Positions 6,285 to 60,936 of a stretch of DNA of 64,000 bases are shown here, one piece after another. Position 1 is the stretch's first letter. Every line of letters starts with the position of its first letter. The stretch lies in contig NZ_JASEEQ010000001.1 in the NCBI RefSeq assembly GCF_030019515.1, positions 124,001-188,000 of the forward strand. The letters are read 5' to 3'. The notes beneath the pieces are model-generated. The model worked only from the letters and a program-made list of their open reading frames with translations. It had not been told where the DNA came from and did no database searches. This DNA is from Nocardioides sp. Its GTDB lineage: Bacteria > Actinomycetota > Actinomycetes > Propionibacteriales > Nocardioidaceae. The translations under genes and the position numbers were made by a program.

Positions 6285-6347
6285 TGCGGTTTGGTCACCA
6301 ACGACATCCTGGCGCGGCCCGGATCCGCCGTTGGTGACCAAACCGCA
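6285..6347. repeat. 63-bp bipartite inverted repeat, copy 1
   Basis: Left half 6285-6306, 19-bp spacer 6307-6325, right half 6326-6347. The two halves are inverted copies of each other, with 19 outer-to-inner bases pairing perfectly (6285-6303 against 6329-6347). Core GTTTGGTCACCAAC on the left, GTTGGTGACCAAAC on the right. It lies between two convergent genes, 34 bases after the methyltransferase stop and 40 bases from the def stop. Confidence 0.95.
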
Positions 6348-11770: not shown

Positions 11771-11833
11771 TGCGGTGTGGTCACCAACGACGGGCATCCT
11801 CCACTCCGGACTGTCGTTGGTGACCAAATGACA
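11771..11833. repeat. 63-bp bipartite inverted repeat, copy 2
   Basis: Left half 11771-11792, spacer 11793-11811 (19 bp), right half 11812-11833. The left half carries one change (TGTGGTCACC instead of TTTGGTCACC). It lies between the convergent DUF2252 and galK genes, 18 bases from the first stop and 37 from the second. Confidence 0.93.
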
Positions 11834-17043: not shown

Positions 17044-17106
17044 TGTCGTTTGGTCACCAACCGCAGACCGGGGGCGCTCCGGGCTGTCGTTGGTGACCAA
17101 ACGACA
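17044..17106. repeat. 63-bp bipartite inverted repeat, copy 3
   Basis: Left half 17044-17065, spacer 17066-17084, right half 17085-17106. Bases 17044-17061 pair perfectly with 17089-17106. It lies 23 bases after the stop of the flavin reductase gene on the minus strand and before the LysR-domain gene promoter. Confidence 0.95.
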
Positions 17107-29740: not shown

Positions 29741-29826
29741 TGTCCGAGGGGGGACTTGAACCCCCACGCCCTAATACGGGCACTAGCACCTCAAGCTAGC
29801 GCGTCTGCCAATTCCGCCACCCGGAC
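29741..29826 (-). tRNA. tRNA-Leu (anticodon GAG)
   Basis: An 86-base class II tRNA. The acceptor GTCCGGG pairs with CTCGGAC (one G-U), followed by discriminator A; CCA is not encoded. The anticodon stem CTAGC/GCTAG holds the loop TTGAGGT, with anticodon GAG at 29792-29790, reading CUC and CUU codons. A long variable arm and the T-loop GTTCAAG are present. Confidence 0.95.
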
Positions 29827-32472: not shown

Positions 32473-32535
32473 TGTCGTTTGGTCACCAACGACACATCTG
32501 ACCTGCTGGGATCTGCCGTTGGTGACCAAACGGCA
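32473..32535. repeat. 63-bp bipartite inverted repeat, copy 4
   Basis: Left half 32473-32494, spacer 32495-32513, right half 32514-32535. It lies 33 bases after the stop of the DUF5703 gene on the minus strand and 67 bases upstream of the esterase start. Confidence 0.95.
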
Positions 32536-39049: not shown

Positions 39050-39112
39050 CGTGGTTTGGTCACCAACGACAGAACGGGAGCGCTCCCAATCGCGGTTGGT
39101 GACCAAACGACG
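39050..39112. repeat. 63-bp bipartite inverted repeat, copy 5
   Basis: Left half 39050-39071, spacer 39072-39090, right half 39091-39112. The spacer itself contains the 12-bp palindrome GGGAGCGCTCCC. The element is centred between convergent mshC and PAC2 genes, with 33 bases to each stop. Confidence 0.95.
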
Positions 39113-47106: not shown

Positions 47107-47169
47107 TGCGGTTTGGTCACCAACGACAGATTTTGGGCGGGTCGGGTTGCCGTTGGTGACCAAACGACA
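47107..47169. repeat. 63-bp bipartite inverted repeat, copy 6
   Basis: Left half 47107-47128, spacer 47129-47147, right half 47148-47169. It lies between the convergent response regulator and nuclease genes, 18 and 16 bases from their stops. Confidence 0.95.
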
Positions 47170-50309: not shown

Positions 50310-50372
50310 CGTCGTTTGGTCACCAACCACGACCTGGCGGTGCCGGTTCCTGCGGTTGGTGACCAAACGGCA
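50310..50372. repeat. 63-bp bipartite inverted repeat, copy 7
   Basis: Left half 50310-50331, spacer 50332-50350, right half 50351-50372. It lies between trmI and arc on the same strand, 23 bases after the trmI stop and about 70 before the arc -10 box. Confidence 0.94.
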
Positions 50373-52287: not shown

Positions 52288-52350
52288 CGTCGTTTGGTCA
52301 CCAACCACAGATCGTGAGCGATCGCATCTGTGGTTGGTGACCAAACGACG
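52288..52350. repeat. 63-bp bipartite inverted repeat, copy 8
   Basis: Left half 52288-52309, spacer 52310-52328, right half 52329-52350. It lies 62 bases after the arc stop, with a separate hairpin in between. Bases 52288-52309 pair with 52329-52350 at every position. Confidence 0.95.
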
Positions 52351-57355: not shown

Positions 57356-58339
57356 ATGGGGACGACGACGAAGAAGCGGGCCGCCGGCGACGAGCCGATC
57401 CGGGGGCAGGTCAGGCTGGCGAGCTACCGGCGCGTCAGCCACGGGCTGTACGTCCTGCAGCGCGATGGGCTGACCGAGGACGAGGAGTTCGTCCGGGAGC
57501 TCGAGGCCTATCGGCTGGTGCTTCCGAAGTCAGCCGTCTTCACGCACTTCACGGGTGCGCGTCTGCGCGGGTGGCGGCTGCCGAAGCTGCCCGAGCAGGT
57601 GCCGGTGTTCGTGGCGGTGCGGCTCAAGGATCCGCGGCCCCGACGGCACGGCCTGATCTGCTCGAGGCTGACCTCCGACCGTCAGCCCACCGAGCGGTTC
57701 GGCCTGCCGGTCGAGGAGGCCGAGGAGATCCTGCTGAGACTGTCGCGGGACCTGGGCGTCCTCGACATGGTCATCGTGATCGACTCCGCCCTCCGCATGG
57801 GTGACCTGGACCCGGTTCGGATGGAACGGCTGCTCCAGTCCAGGCGACCGGGGGTGCGGATGCTGCGGATCGCATACCGGCTGGCGAACCCCCTGAGCGA
57901 GTCCGAGGGAGAGACGATTCTGCGGATCTTCGACGAGGCGATCGACGTGCCCGTGCAGCCGCAGGTCGAGCTGTTCGACGATCGCGGGAACCTGATCGGC
58001 CGCGTCGACCTGCTGGTCACGGGGACCACGGACATCCACGAGTACGACGGCGAGCACCATCGCGACAAGGACCAGCACCGGGTCGACATGCGGCGGGAGC
58101 GGGGGTGGGCGGGCTCGCCGTACACCCGCAGCGGCTTCGCGCTCGACGACCTGCTGAACCACCCCGCGGTCGTGATGCACGAGATCGACCGGGCCCTCGA
58201 CCGTCCCCACCGAGCGCGTCGGCTGCGTCGCTGGCGCGCGATCGTGAAGAACTCGCTGTACTCCGAGGCCGGCCGCGAACGACTCATGAACCGGTGGCGG
58301 CGCCAGAGCGCCATCATGGACTGGTCACGGGCCTCCTGA
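57356..58339 (+). CDS. AbiEi/DUF559-like protein with restriction-endonuclease-like domain
   Basis: A 327-residue protein inserted between prcA and pafA. Residues 15-90 resemble a winged-helix segment of AbiEi-like antitoxins (YRRVSHGLYVLQRDGL). The C-terminal half has a PD-(D/E)XK-like pattern: SESEGETILRIFDEA, then GNLIGRVDLLVTGTTDIHEYDG, with Glu, Asp and E-Y-D in the right order, followed by HHRDKDQHRVDMRRERGW. Such proteins are frequent in actinobacteria, function unknown; a Vsr/DUF559-type nuclease is the best guess. ATG 57356 or GTG 57323 may start it. No toxin partner is adjacent. Confidence 0.7.
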   Translation: MGTTTKKRAAGDEPIRGQVRLASYRRVSHGLYVLQRDGLTEDEEFVRELEAYRLVLPKSAVFTHFTGARLRGWRLPKLPEQVPVFVAVRLKDPRPRRHGLICSRLTSDRQPTERFGLPVEEAEEILLRLSRDLGVLDMVIVIDSALRMGDLDPVRMERLLQSRRPGVRMLRIAYRLANPLSESEGETILRIFDEAIDVPVQPQVELFDDRGNLIGRVDLLVTGTTDIHEYDGEHHRDKDQHRVDMRRERGWAGSPYTRSGFALDDLLNHPAVVMHEIDRALDRPHRARRLRRWRAIVKNSLYSEAGRERLMNRWRRQSAIMDWSRAS

Positions 58340-59816: not shown

Positions 59817-59879
59817 TGCGGTTTGGTCACCAACTGCAACCGGATGAGCCCCAGGAGTGTCGTTGGTGACCAAACCACA
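59817..59879. repeat. 63-bp bipartite inverted repeat, copy 10
   Basis: Left half 59817-59838, spacer 59839-59857, right half 59858-59879. The left half ends in CTGCA rather than CGACA. It lies 11 bases after the pafA stop and ahead of the FKBP gene promoter. Confidence 0.93.
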
Positions 59880-59982: not shown

Positions 59983-60936
59983 GTGTTTCGACGTCCCCGC
60001 CGTCTCTCGGCCGTCCTGCTCCCGCTGGTCCTGGCCACCATGCTGGCCACCACGCTGGTCGCGTGCGGCTCCGACTCCTCCGACGGCGACTCCTCGTCGT
60101 CGTCCGACAGCCTGCACGGGATCACCGTGACCGGTGACCTCGGCAGCGGGCCGGAGGTGAAGTGGGACGGCAAGCTCGACGTCGACAAGACCGAGACCAC
60201 GGTGCTCACCGAGGGCGACGGAGACGTGGTCAAGGACGGCGACAAGGTCCAGGTCAACCTCTGGATCGGCAACGGCTTCACCCAGGAGGAGGCCTACAGC
60301 AGCTACGCCGAGGGCGGCCAGGAGGAGACCGTGACGGCCAGCGACCAGCTGGCGCCGGTGTTCAAGGACGCCGTGCTCGGCCAGAAGCTCGGCTCCCGGG
60401 TCGCCGTCACCGCGACCGGCGCGGACGCGTTCGGCGAGGCGGGCAACACCTCGATCGGGATCGCTCCCACCGACACGGTGCTGATCATCGTGGACCTGAT
60501 GGAGATGTACCAGCCGCCGACGCCGAAGGACGTGCCGTCGGCCCAGCTGCCGGGGATCGTGGAGAAGAAGGGCGAGCCGGTCGCGCTCGACTTCAAGGGC
60601 ATCGACGAGCCGAAGGCCGACGGCGACCTGCTGCGCAGCGTCGTCAAGGAGGGCAAGGGAACGACGGTCACCACCGACATGACCGTGACGGCCAACTACC
60701 TCGGCATGGTGTACGGCGCCAAGAAGCCCTTCGACGAGAGCTACTCCAAGGACCCGGTGCCGTTCGCGCTCTCGCAGGTCGTGCAGGGCTGGACCTACGG
60801 CCTCGAGGGCCTCAAGGTCGGCAGCCGGGTACTCCTCCAGATCCCGCCGGCCCTCGGGTACGGCGCATCCGAGCAGAGCGGCATCCCGGCGAACAGCACG
60901 CTGTACTTCGTCGTCGACATCATCGACGCCAAGTAG
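59983..60936 (+). CDS. FKBP-type peptidyl-prolyl isomerase lipoprotein
   Basis: A 317-residue exported protein. The signal peptide ends in the lipobox LVAC with Cys28, followed by a Ser/Asp linker. Residues about 60-170 form a degenerate FKBP-like domain, and residues 215-317 a canonical one (VTANYLGMVYGAKKPFDESY, then VVQGWTYGLEGLKVGSRVLL and YGASEQSGIPANSTLYFVV). It catalyses proline isomerisation outside the membrane, helping exported proteins fold. GTG 59983 follows GCGAAGG by nine bases; the TTG at 59974 is less likely. It precedes pafBC as in other actinobacteria. Confidence 0.9.
   Translation: MFRRPRRLSAVLLPLVLATMLATTLVACGSDSSDGDSSSSSDSLHGITVTGDLGSGPEVKWDGKLDVDKTETTVLTEGDGDVVKDGDKVQVNLWIGNGFTQEEAYSSYAEGGQEETVTASDQLAPVFKDAVLGQKLGSRVAVTATGADAFGEAGNTSIGIAPTDTVLIIVDLMEMYQPPTPKDVPSAQLPGIVEKKGEPVALDFKGIDEPKADGDLLRSVVKEGKGTTVTTDMTVTANYLGMVYGAKKPFDESYSKDPVPFALSQVVQGWTYGLEGLKVGSRVLLQIPPALGYGASEQSGIPANSTLYFVVDIIDAK

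Follow-up and report, generated by a model that had tools for sequence, protein, structure and literature searches.

Paired palindromic elements with a rigid 41-bp spacing in Nocardioides, and a candidate partner protein combining AbiEi-like and Vsr-like halves

A 63-bp sequence at positions 17044-17106 of a Nocardioides chromosome segment (the 64,000-nucleotide stretch analysed here, referred to as the window) consists of two 22-bp half-sites separated by a spacer. What is this element, and what might recognise it? An initial annotation, made from the letters of the DNA, had placed two dyads at these coordinates; the coordinates are correct and both dyads are real. The right half reads TGTCG-TTGGT-G-ACCAA-A-CGACA and is exactly the bulged dyad quoted in that annotation, on the opposite strand. 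The left half reads TGTCG-T-TTGGT-C-ACCAA-C-CGCA: its core is perfect but, with an outer right arm CCGCA, it is only partly self-complementary, and the quoted structure applies to it only in part. The core centres (17055 and 17095) lie 40 bp apart, as had been claimed. The outer 22-bp dyads are centred on 17054.5 and 17095.5, and it is this 41-bp distance that holds from copy to copy, whatever the orientation.

The whole unit is present in ten copies in the window, all of them inverted pairs (Table 1), and 17 elements were found within the stretches taken from the genome to which the window belongs (G000). When any base is allowed at both bulges, the quoted half has three matches in the window, with three mismatches each, compared with none in 100 shuffled sequences. 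Together with the ten copies of the full unit, this indicates that the pattern is not due to chance.

Table 1. Position of the half-sites, element copies and proposed cognate protein gene in the window
Feature	Position	Strand
Element copy, inverted pair, between convergent genes	6285..6347	
Element copy, one mismatch per half	11771..11833	
Left half-site (imperfect 22-bp dyad, core TTGGTCACCAA)	17044..17065	+
Spacer, sequence free, length fixed	17066..17084	n/a
Right half-site (complete bulged dyad)	17085..17106	-
Element copy	32473..32535	
Element copy between convergent genes	39050..39112	
Element copy between convergent genes	47107..47169	
Element copy 3' of preceding gene, 152 bp ahead of proteasome ATPase gene	50310..50372	
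Element copy 3' of proteasome ATPase gene	52288..52350	
Element copy 3' of proteasome alpha-subunit gene (prcA), upstream of P0001	57213..57275	
P0001, 327 aa, AbiEi-like half (~6-179) and Vsr/EDxHD-like nuclease half (~181-284); proposed cognate protein	57356..58339	+
Element copy 3' of pafA	59817..59879	

To describe the geometry we used stretches of 14 Nocardioides genomes. A half-site was defined by allowing one mismatch to any of five 12-mers, and halves no more than 60 bp apart were grouped. This gave 174 elements with at least two halves in 13 genomes; the stretches taken from the fourteenth (G002) contained no elements of this type. Among the 193 adjacent half-pairs, 173 are spaced by 41 bp, nine by 42 bp, four by 40 bp and seven by other distances. 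The spacer sequence is free, with a weakly GC-rich centre. The proposal of a strict spacer length with free sequence is thus borne out, and elements with widely varying spacers were sought in the 13 genomes and not found. Measured by the outer dyad, exactly 41 bp separates 140 of 150 inverted (+-) pairs, 32 of 38 direct (++ or --) pairs and one of five divergent pairs. Halves also occur in runs of up to eight. In one such locus (L074; G087 C1:703372-703688), eight direct half-sites follow each other, six of the intervals being 41 bp and one 48 bp. The half-sites are genome-specific (TTTGGTCACCAAC, TTTGGTCCCCAAC, TTTGGTCCCAAAC and others) and some genomes contain a mixture. The same pattern is found in named sequence records: among the 80 matches listed of a total of 116, 78 are from Nocardioides and two from Pimelobacter (a single record). 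The element is real and constrained, and its geometry is of the type expected for protein binding.

A candidate for the protein is encoded within the element cluster itself. This gene, P0001, is flanked by prcA and pafA (neighbours identified by NCBIfam). The strict inverted motif is present in 51 of 215 genomes of the genus and P0001 orthologues (at least 250 bits) in 62, with both together in 46. This gives a Fisher p of 2e-27 over all 215 genomes, a value which ignores phylogeny, and the co-occurrence could be the effect of one clade. For motif genomes of good quality (at least 90% complete and at most 5% contaminated) an orthologue is found in 43 of 44. G077 (100% complete) has two strict copies and no P0001 orthologue, and in G188 four strict copies lie far from the orthologue. 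Sixteen genomes carry the gene without the strict motif. Judged by eye in the stretch of up to 20 kb taken around the gene, ten of these have variant paired repeats nearby, mostly 41-bp (G010, G082, G109, G120, G122, G205, G206 and G208, and less clearly G221 and G229); no variant pair was found in this stretch in the other six (G026, G111, G157, G167, G168 and G210).

Of 43 orthologue loci, 31 have an exact 11-mer pair no more than 350 bp upstream of the gene, 12 lack one there and none has one downstream; L247, L286 and L297 were left out of this count and several genomes are represented twice. The copy in the gap upstream of P0001 in the window is found in all 12 genomes where this gap is comparable. 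The P0001 frame is interrupted by a stop codon in G082, G212 and G229 and is matched as two pieces in G223. When residues were compared with site type, the best alignment column reached an accuracy of 0.92, a figure obtained with many residue classes and ignoring phylogeny. Two further observations concern variant sites. In three genomes (G036 C1:2000267, G103 C14:321586 and G139 C1:2432822) the P0001 frame runs at its 3' end into a variant half-site, TTGGTCACGAAC, whose partner half lies some 40 bp away. G002, which has no P0001 orthologue, carries two inverted pairs of AGTCCCTGACGAAAAG (C1:1986684 and 2021722), 41 bp apart start-to-start.

Distant relatives of P0001 (about 32-42% identity) are accompanied by repeats of their own. 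Of 20 loci, 17 have paired 11-mer repeats no further than 350 bp from the gene, compared with four of 28 control genes in the relatives' loci (L285 was included, with gene coordinates set by hand). For example, the repeat of the relative in G013, AGTGGTCACGAACGACAG, is similar to TTTGGTCACCAACGACAG of the window's genome, and in G023 the gene has one such pair on each side. The half-site of one relative, TGGCGGCRNACGACA, was searched for in 12 genomes. It has between 8 and 81 copies in seven of these (G096, G150, G012, G134, G061, G022 and G143), none in G000 and one or two in the other four. The two matches in G013 are no better than chance since the reversed control matched once there. Among the places listed, tandem steps of about 31 bp and inverted steps of about 34 bp recur. 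The sites are spread over many contigs, and in G096 and G134 copies flank the relative's gene on both sides. Arrays with steps of about 31 bp and up to 12 halves are present at G096 C3:427377-427737 and on other contigs.

Our initial reading was that of a matS-like terminus-organising site, by which a chromosome-architecture protein would shape the region around dif. Symmetric intergenic sites would fit this, each of the 11 genomes in which cluster and dif-like site could both be located has the two close together, and in G118 the cluster lies near the antipode of dnaA. The distances, however, point to the gene: 112 of 143 elements are closer to P0001 than to dif and, in each of the 11 genomes that have both, the median distance to P0001 is the shorter (barely so in G140, 27.9 kb versus 28.8 kb), as measured in stretches chosen around the clusters. 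In addition, none of the 39 genomes searched has a match to the MatP family (PF06303), with a positive E. coli control, and the dispersal of the TGGCGGCRNACGACA sites over many contigs argues against a terminus function. We consider this reading unlikely and dropped it after the distance comparison and the MatP search. The dif-like site is itself a single copy in each of the 85 genomes (of 147) in which it was found; in G000 (GCCGATAANTGACATTATGTCA, C11:216057-216078) it is outside the window, about 34 kb from P0001.

The elements are not distributed at random with respect to genes. Using a simple purpose-made gene caller, we found 74 of the 174 in convergent gaps, 87 in co-directional gaps, 5 in divergent gaps and 8 overlapping genes, against a background (gaps of at least 65 bp) of 147 convergent, 478 co-directional and 262 divergent (chi-square p 2e-25). 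In co-directional gaps the median element is 22 bp past the stop codon and 98 bp before the next start, and 77 of 87 are nearer the stop. This location, together with the enrichment between convergent genes and the capacity of inverted pairs to base-pair as RNA, would suit RNA hairpins that terminate transcription or stabilise the mRNA at gene 3' ends. Direct pairs, however, cannot form the long hairpin and yet retain both the 41-bp spacing and the same gene context. Of the two explanations that the initial annotation had offered for a fixed spacer, protein binding and an RNA loop, the first is therefore to be preferred. Complementarity of flank and spacer shows no consistent excess over shuffled sequences in eight genomes (z from -3.0 to 2.0, with the exception of the spacer centre in G087, z = -6.0). 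This comparison used only exact-core +- pairs at 41 bp, in the eight genomes with at least eight of them, and revealed no consistent compensatory changes across copies. Rfam gives no match at the elements, and an RNA function would leave both the clustering and the link with the gene unexplained. We regard it as quite unlikely and abandoned it in view of the covariation and Rfam results, the sole Rfam match in the window being a tRNA gene (29741-29826, minus strand).

It is very unlikely that an ordinary transcription regulator simply uses the elements as its operators. The copy upstream of P0001 does occupy an operator position in many genomes, but only 5 of the 174 elements lie between divergent genes, and in G000 and G032 the genes next to scattered copies look unrelated (from reading their translations by eye).

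Comparison between genomes indicates how the elements evolve. They are found at orthologous gaps in several species but have been gained or lost, and gaps that carry one look longer (by eye). In the close pair G000 and G032 the arms and total length are conserved and the spacers have diverged. The retention of arms and spacing at shared sites although spacers diverge supports constraint on the elements. Shared gaps carry each genome's own version of the half-site, in line with what a trans-acting factor that specifies the site would produce. For two G032 copies missing from G000, comparison of the two genomes revealed no clean insertion boundary or empty site. Viral contigs searched with one exact inverted pattern gave no matches, nor did plasmids searched with a 71-bp query (E 0.01), and a phage or plasmid origin was dropped. 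The earlier view that the elements are not the simple decay of a mobile element is supported to the extent that arms and spacing are conserved despite diverging spacers; a mobile origin without decay is possible for such a REP-like, nuclease-tied family. It is most improbable that the elements are REP/RAYT-type palindromes mobilised by a Y1 transposase, or passive repeat debris of another kind. REPs do have the same location habit (PMC3733652), copies flank some P0001 relatives on both sides and elements are present or absent at orthologous gaps. However, Y1_Tnp (PF01797) is found in none of 16 motif genomes (5 of 14 control genomes are positive), and the strict spacing and the retained arms are both at variance with such an origin.

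What kind of protein is P0001? An AlphaFold model built from 11 sequences (pLDDT 84.7) was compared with known structures. Using VIA-align, residues 6-178 match AbiEi (6y8q; Z 9.6 over 154 residues, rmsd 5.8) and residues 8-179 match Rv2827c (1zel; Z 7.6), with a Foldseek E of 0.0042 for the AbiEi-like fold. Residues 181-284 match I-Bth0305I (3r3p; Z 9.7 over 92 residues, rmsd 2.9; Foldseek E 0.04), NGO0050 (3hrl; Z 9.1) and Vsr (1cw0; Z 8.2). Since Foldseek alone gives no match to the model at E of 0.001 or below, the fold is probable rather than proved, and P0001 is, as modelled, probably an AbiEi-antitoxin-like half joined to a Vsr/I-Bth0305I-like nuclease half. Sequence searches give a fainter signal. 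Pfam matches among the 11 orthologues are weak (DUF559 in three, AbiEi_1 in one with E 6e-4), a PDB sequence search with the orthologue profile returns a single weak match (7mwq, E 0.33), PADLOC finds no match and the only NCBIfam match is far under the cut-off. In the nuclease half, the acidic and histidine residues E186, D218, E229, D231, H235 and D244 are invariant in the 11 orthologues and largely common to 20 relatives. The gene is under purifying selection (dN/dS of 0.25 relative to G032). Its dN is the seventh highest of the 155 genes compared, with the N-terminal half changing about twice as fast as the C-terminal half. Among genes of the region, that for an FKBP-type protein after pafA (59983-60936) diverges faster than its neighbours (36-92% identity).

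The explanation that we favour, with moderate confidence, is that the elements are dispersed paired targets of P0001 acting as an AbiEi-like/EDxHD-type nuclease. Each half of about 22 bp would be bound by one AbiEi-like N-terminal half, and two molecules would occupy the same face of the DNA, with 41 bp, or about four turns, between them. Phased in this way, they would make the length of the spacer matter but not its sequence. AbiEi monomers bind paired 23-bp inverted repeats, with gaps of 3 and 13 bp (PMC7319586), and I-Bth0305I acts as a dimer on nearly 60 bp (PMC3943268); a 63-bp element composed of two 22-bp halves would fit a pair of P0001 molecules. The near-palindromic outer half-site could allow a monomer to bind either way round, which would explain the direct pairs. 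The copy just upstream of P0001 probably doubles as the operator of the gene, while the remaining copies, in which the half-site type is mostly that of the genome itself, would form a REP-like dispersed family around it, tolerated 3' of stop codons. These copies have probably been spread or maintained via cleavage and repair by the nuclease half, and spread of the site from the gene in this way is the most likely source of the clustering. The geometry, gene context, co-occurrence and clustering of the elements, the sites of related genes and a probable fold are observed in this scheme, whose further steps of binding, autoregulation, cleavage and spread by P0001 we infer.

A more general statement, which we put forward tentatively, is that AbiEi-like/Vsr-type nucleases of several lineages within one genus may each seed and maintain their own helically phased paired palindromes around their gene, with site and protein changing together between species. 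Among the papers listed by literature searches, titles and abstract openings contain nothing describing such elements; the element 14-mer was not found in any paper in this search, nor was a paper combining DUF559 and AbiEi. The system would tie palindromic repeats of a dispersed, recognisable class to a candidate protein from an enzyme class other than that of the RAYTs, and it provides a testable role for AbiEi-like and DUF559-like proteins in site-specific binding and, perhaps, cleavage. If the sites owe their spread to the nuclease, this would be a new route by which short repeats enter bacterial genomes; if the sites have been recruited for host use, it would be a new chromosome-patterning system. 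Because site and protein vary between species, the change in specificity is open to direct study.

How do these elements compare with known systems? Like those of REP/BIME-RAYT systems, they are dispersed intergenic palindromes, often paired, 3' of genes, species-specific and with copies beside the partner gene. Unlike these, they have a rigid 41-bp spacing in both inverted and direct pairs, and the 16 genomes examined contain no Y1 (HUH) transposase, the proposed partner being AbiEi-like/Vsr-like instead. With matS/MatP they share repeated palindromic sites near dif, but the sites are centred closer to P0001 than to dif, and no MatP homologue was matched in 39 genomes. By the tests made, the elements fall outside both REP/RAYT and matS/MatP. 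The N-terminal fold of the P0001 model is that of the AbiEi family (AbiEi and Rv2827c; 6y8q and 1zel), whose operators, in the AbiEi case, are also pairs of inverted repeats of about 23 bp upstream of the gene (PMC7319586). P0001 differs from AbiEi in its C-terminal nuclease-like half, and the elements differ from the operators (gaps of 3 or 13 bp) in their 19-bp gap and their dispersal over the chromosome. The C-terminal half of the model has the EDxHD catalytic-domain fold of I-Bth0305I and Vsr (3r3p and 1cw0), and the elements resemble the I-Bth0305I target in length, near 60 bp (PMC3943268). Unlike EDxHD homing endonucleases, P0001 is encoded by a syntenic chromosomal gene between prcA and pafA and has many candidate sites per genome. 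The elements are, then, probably targets of an AbiEi-like/EDxHD-type protein.
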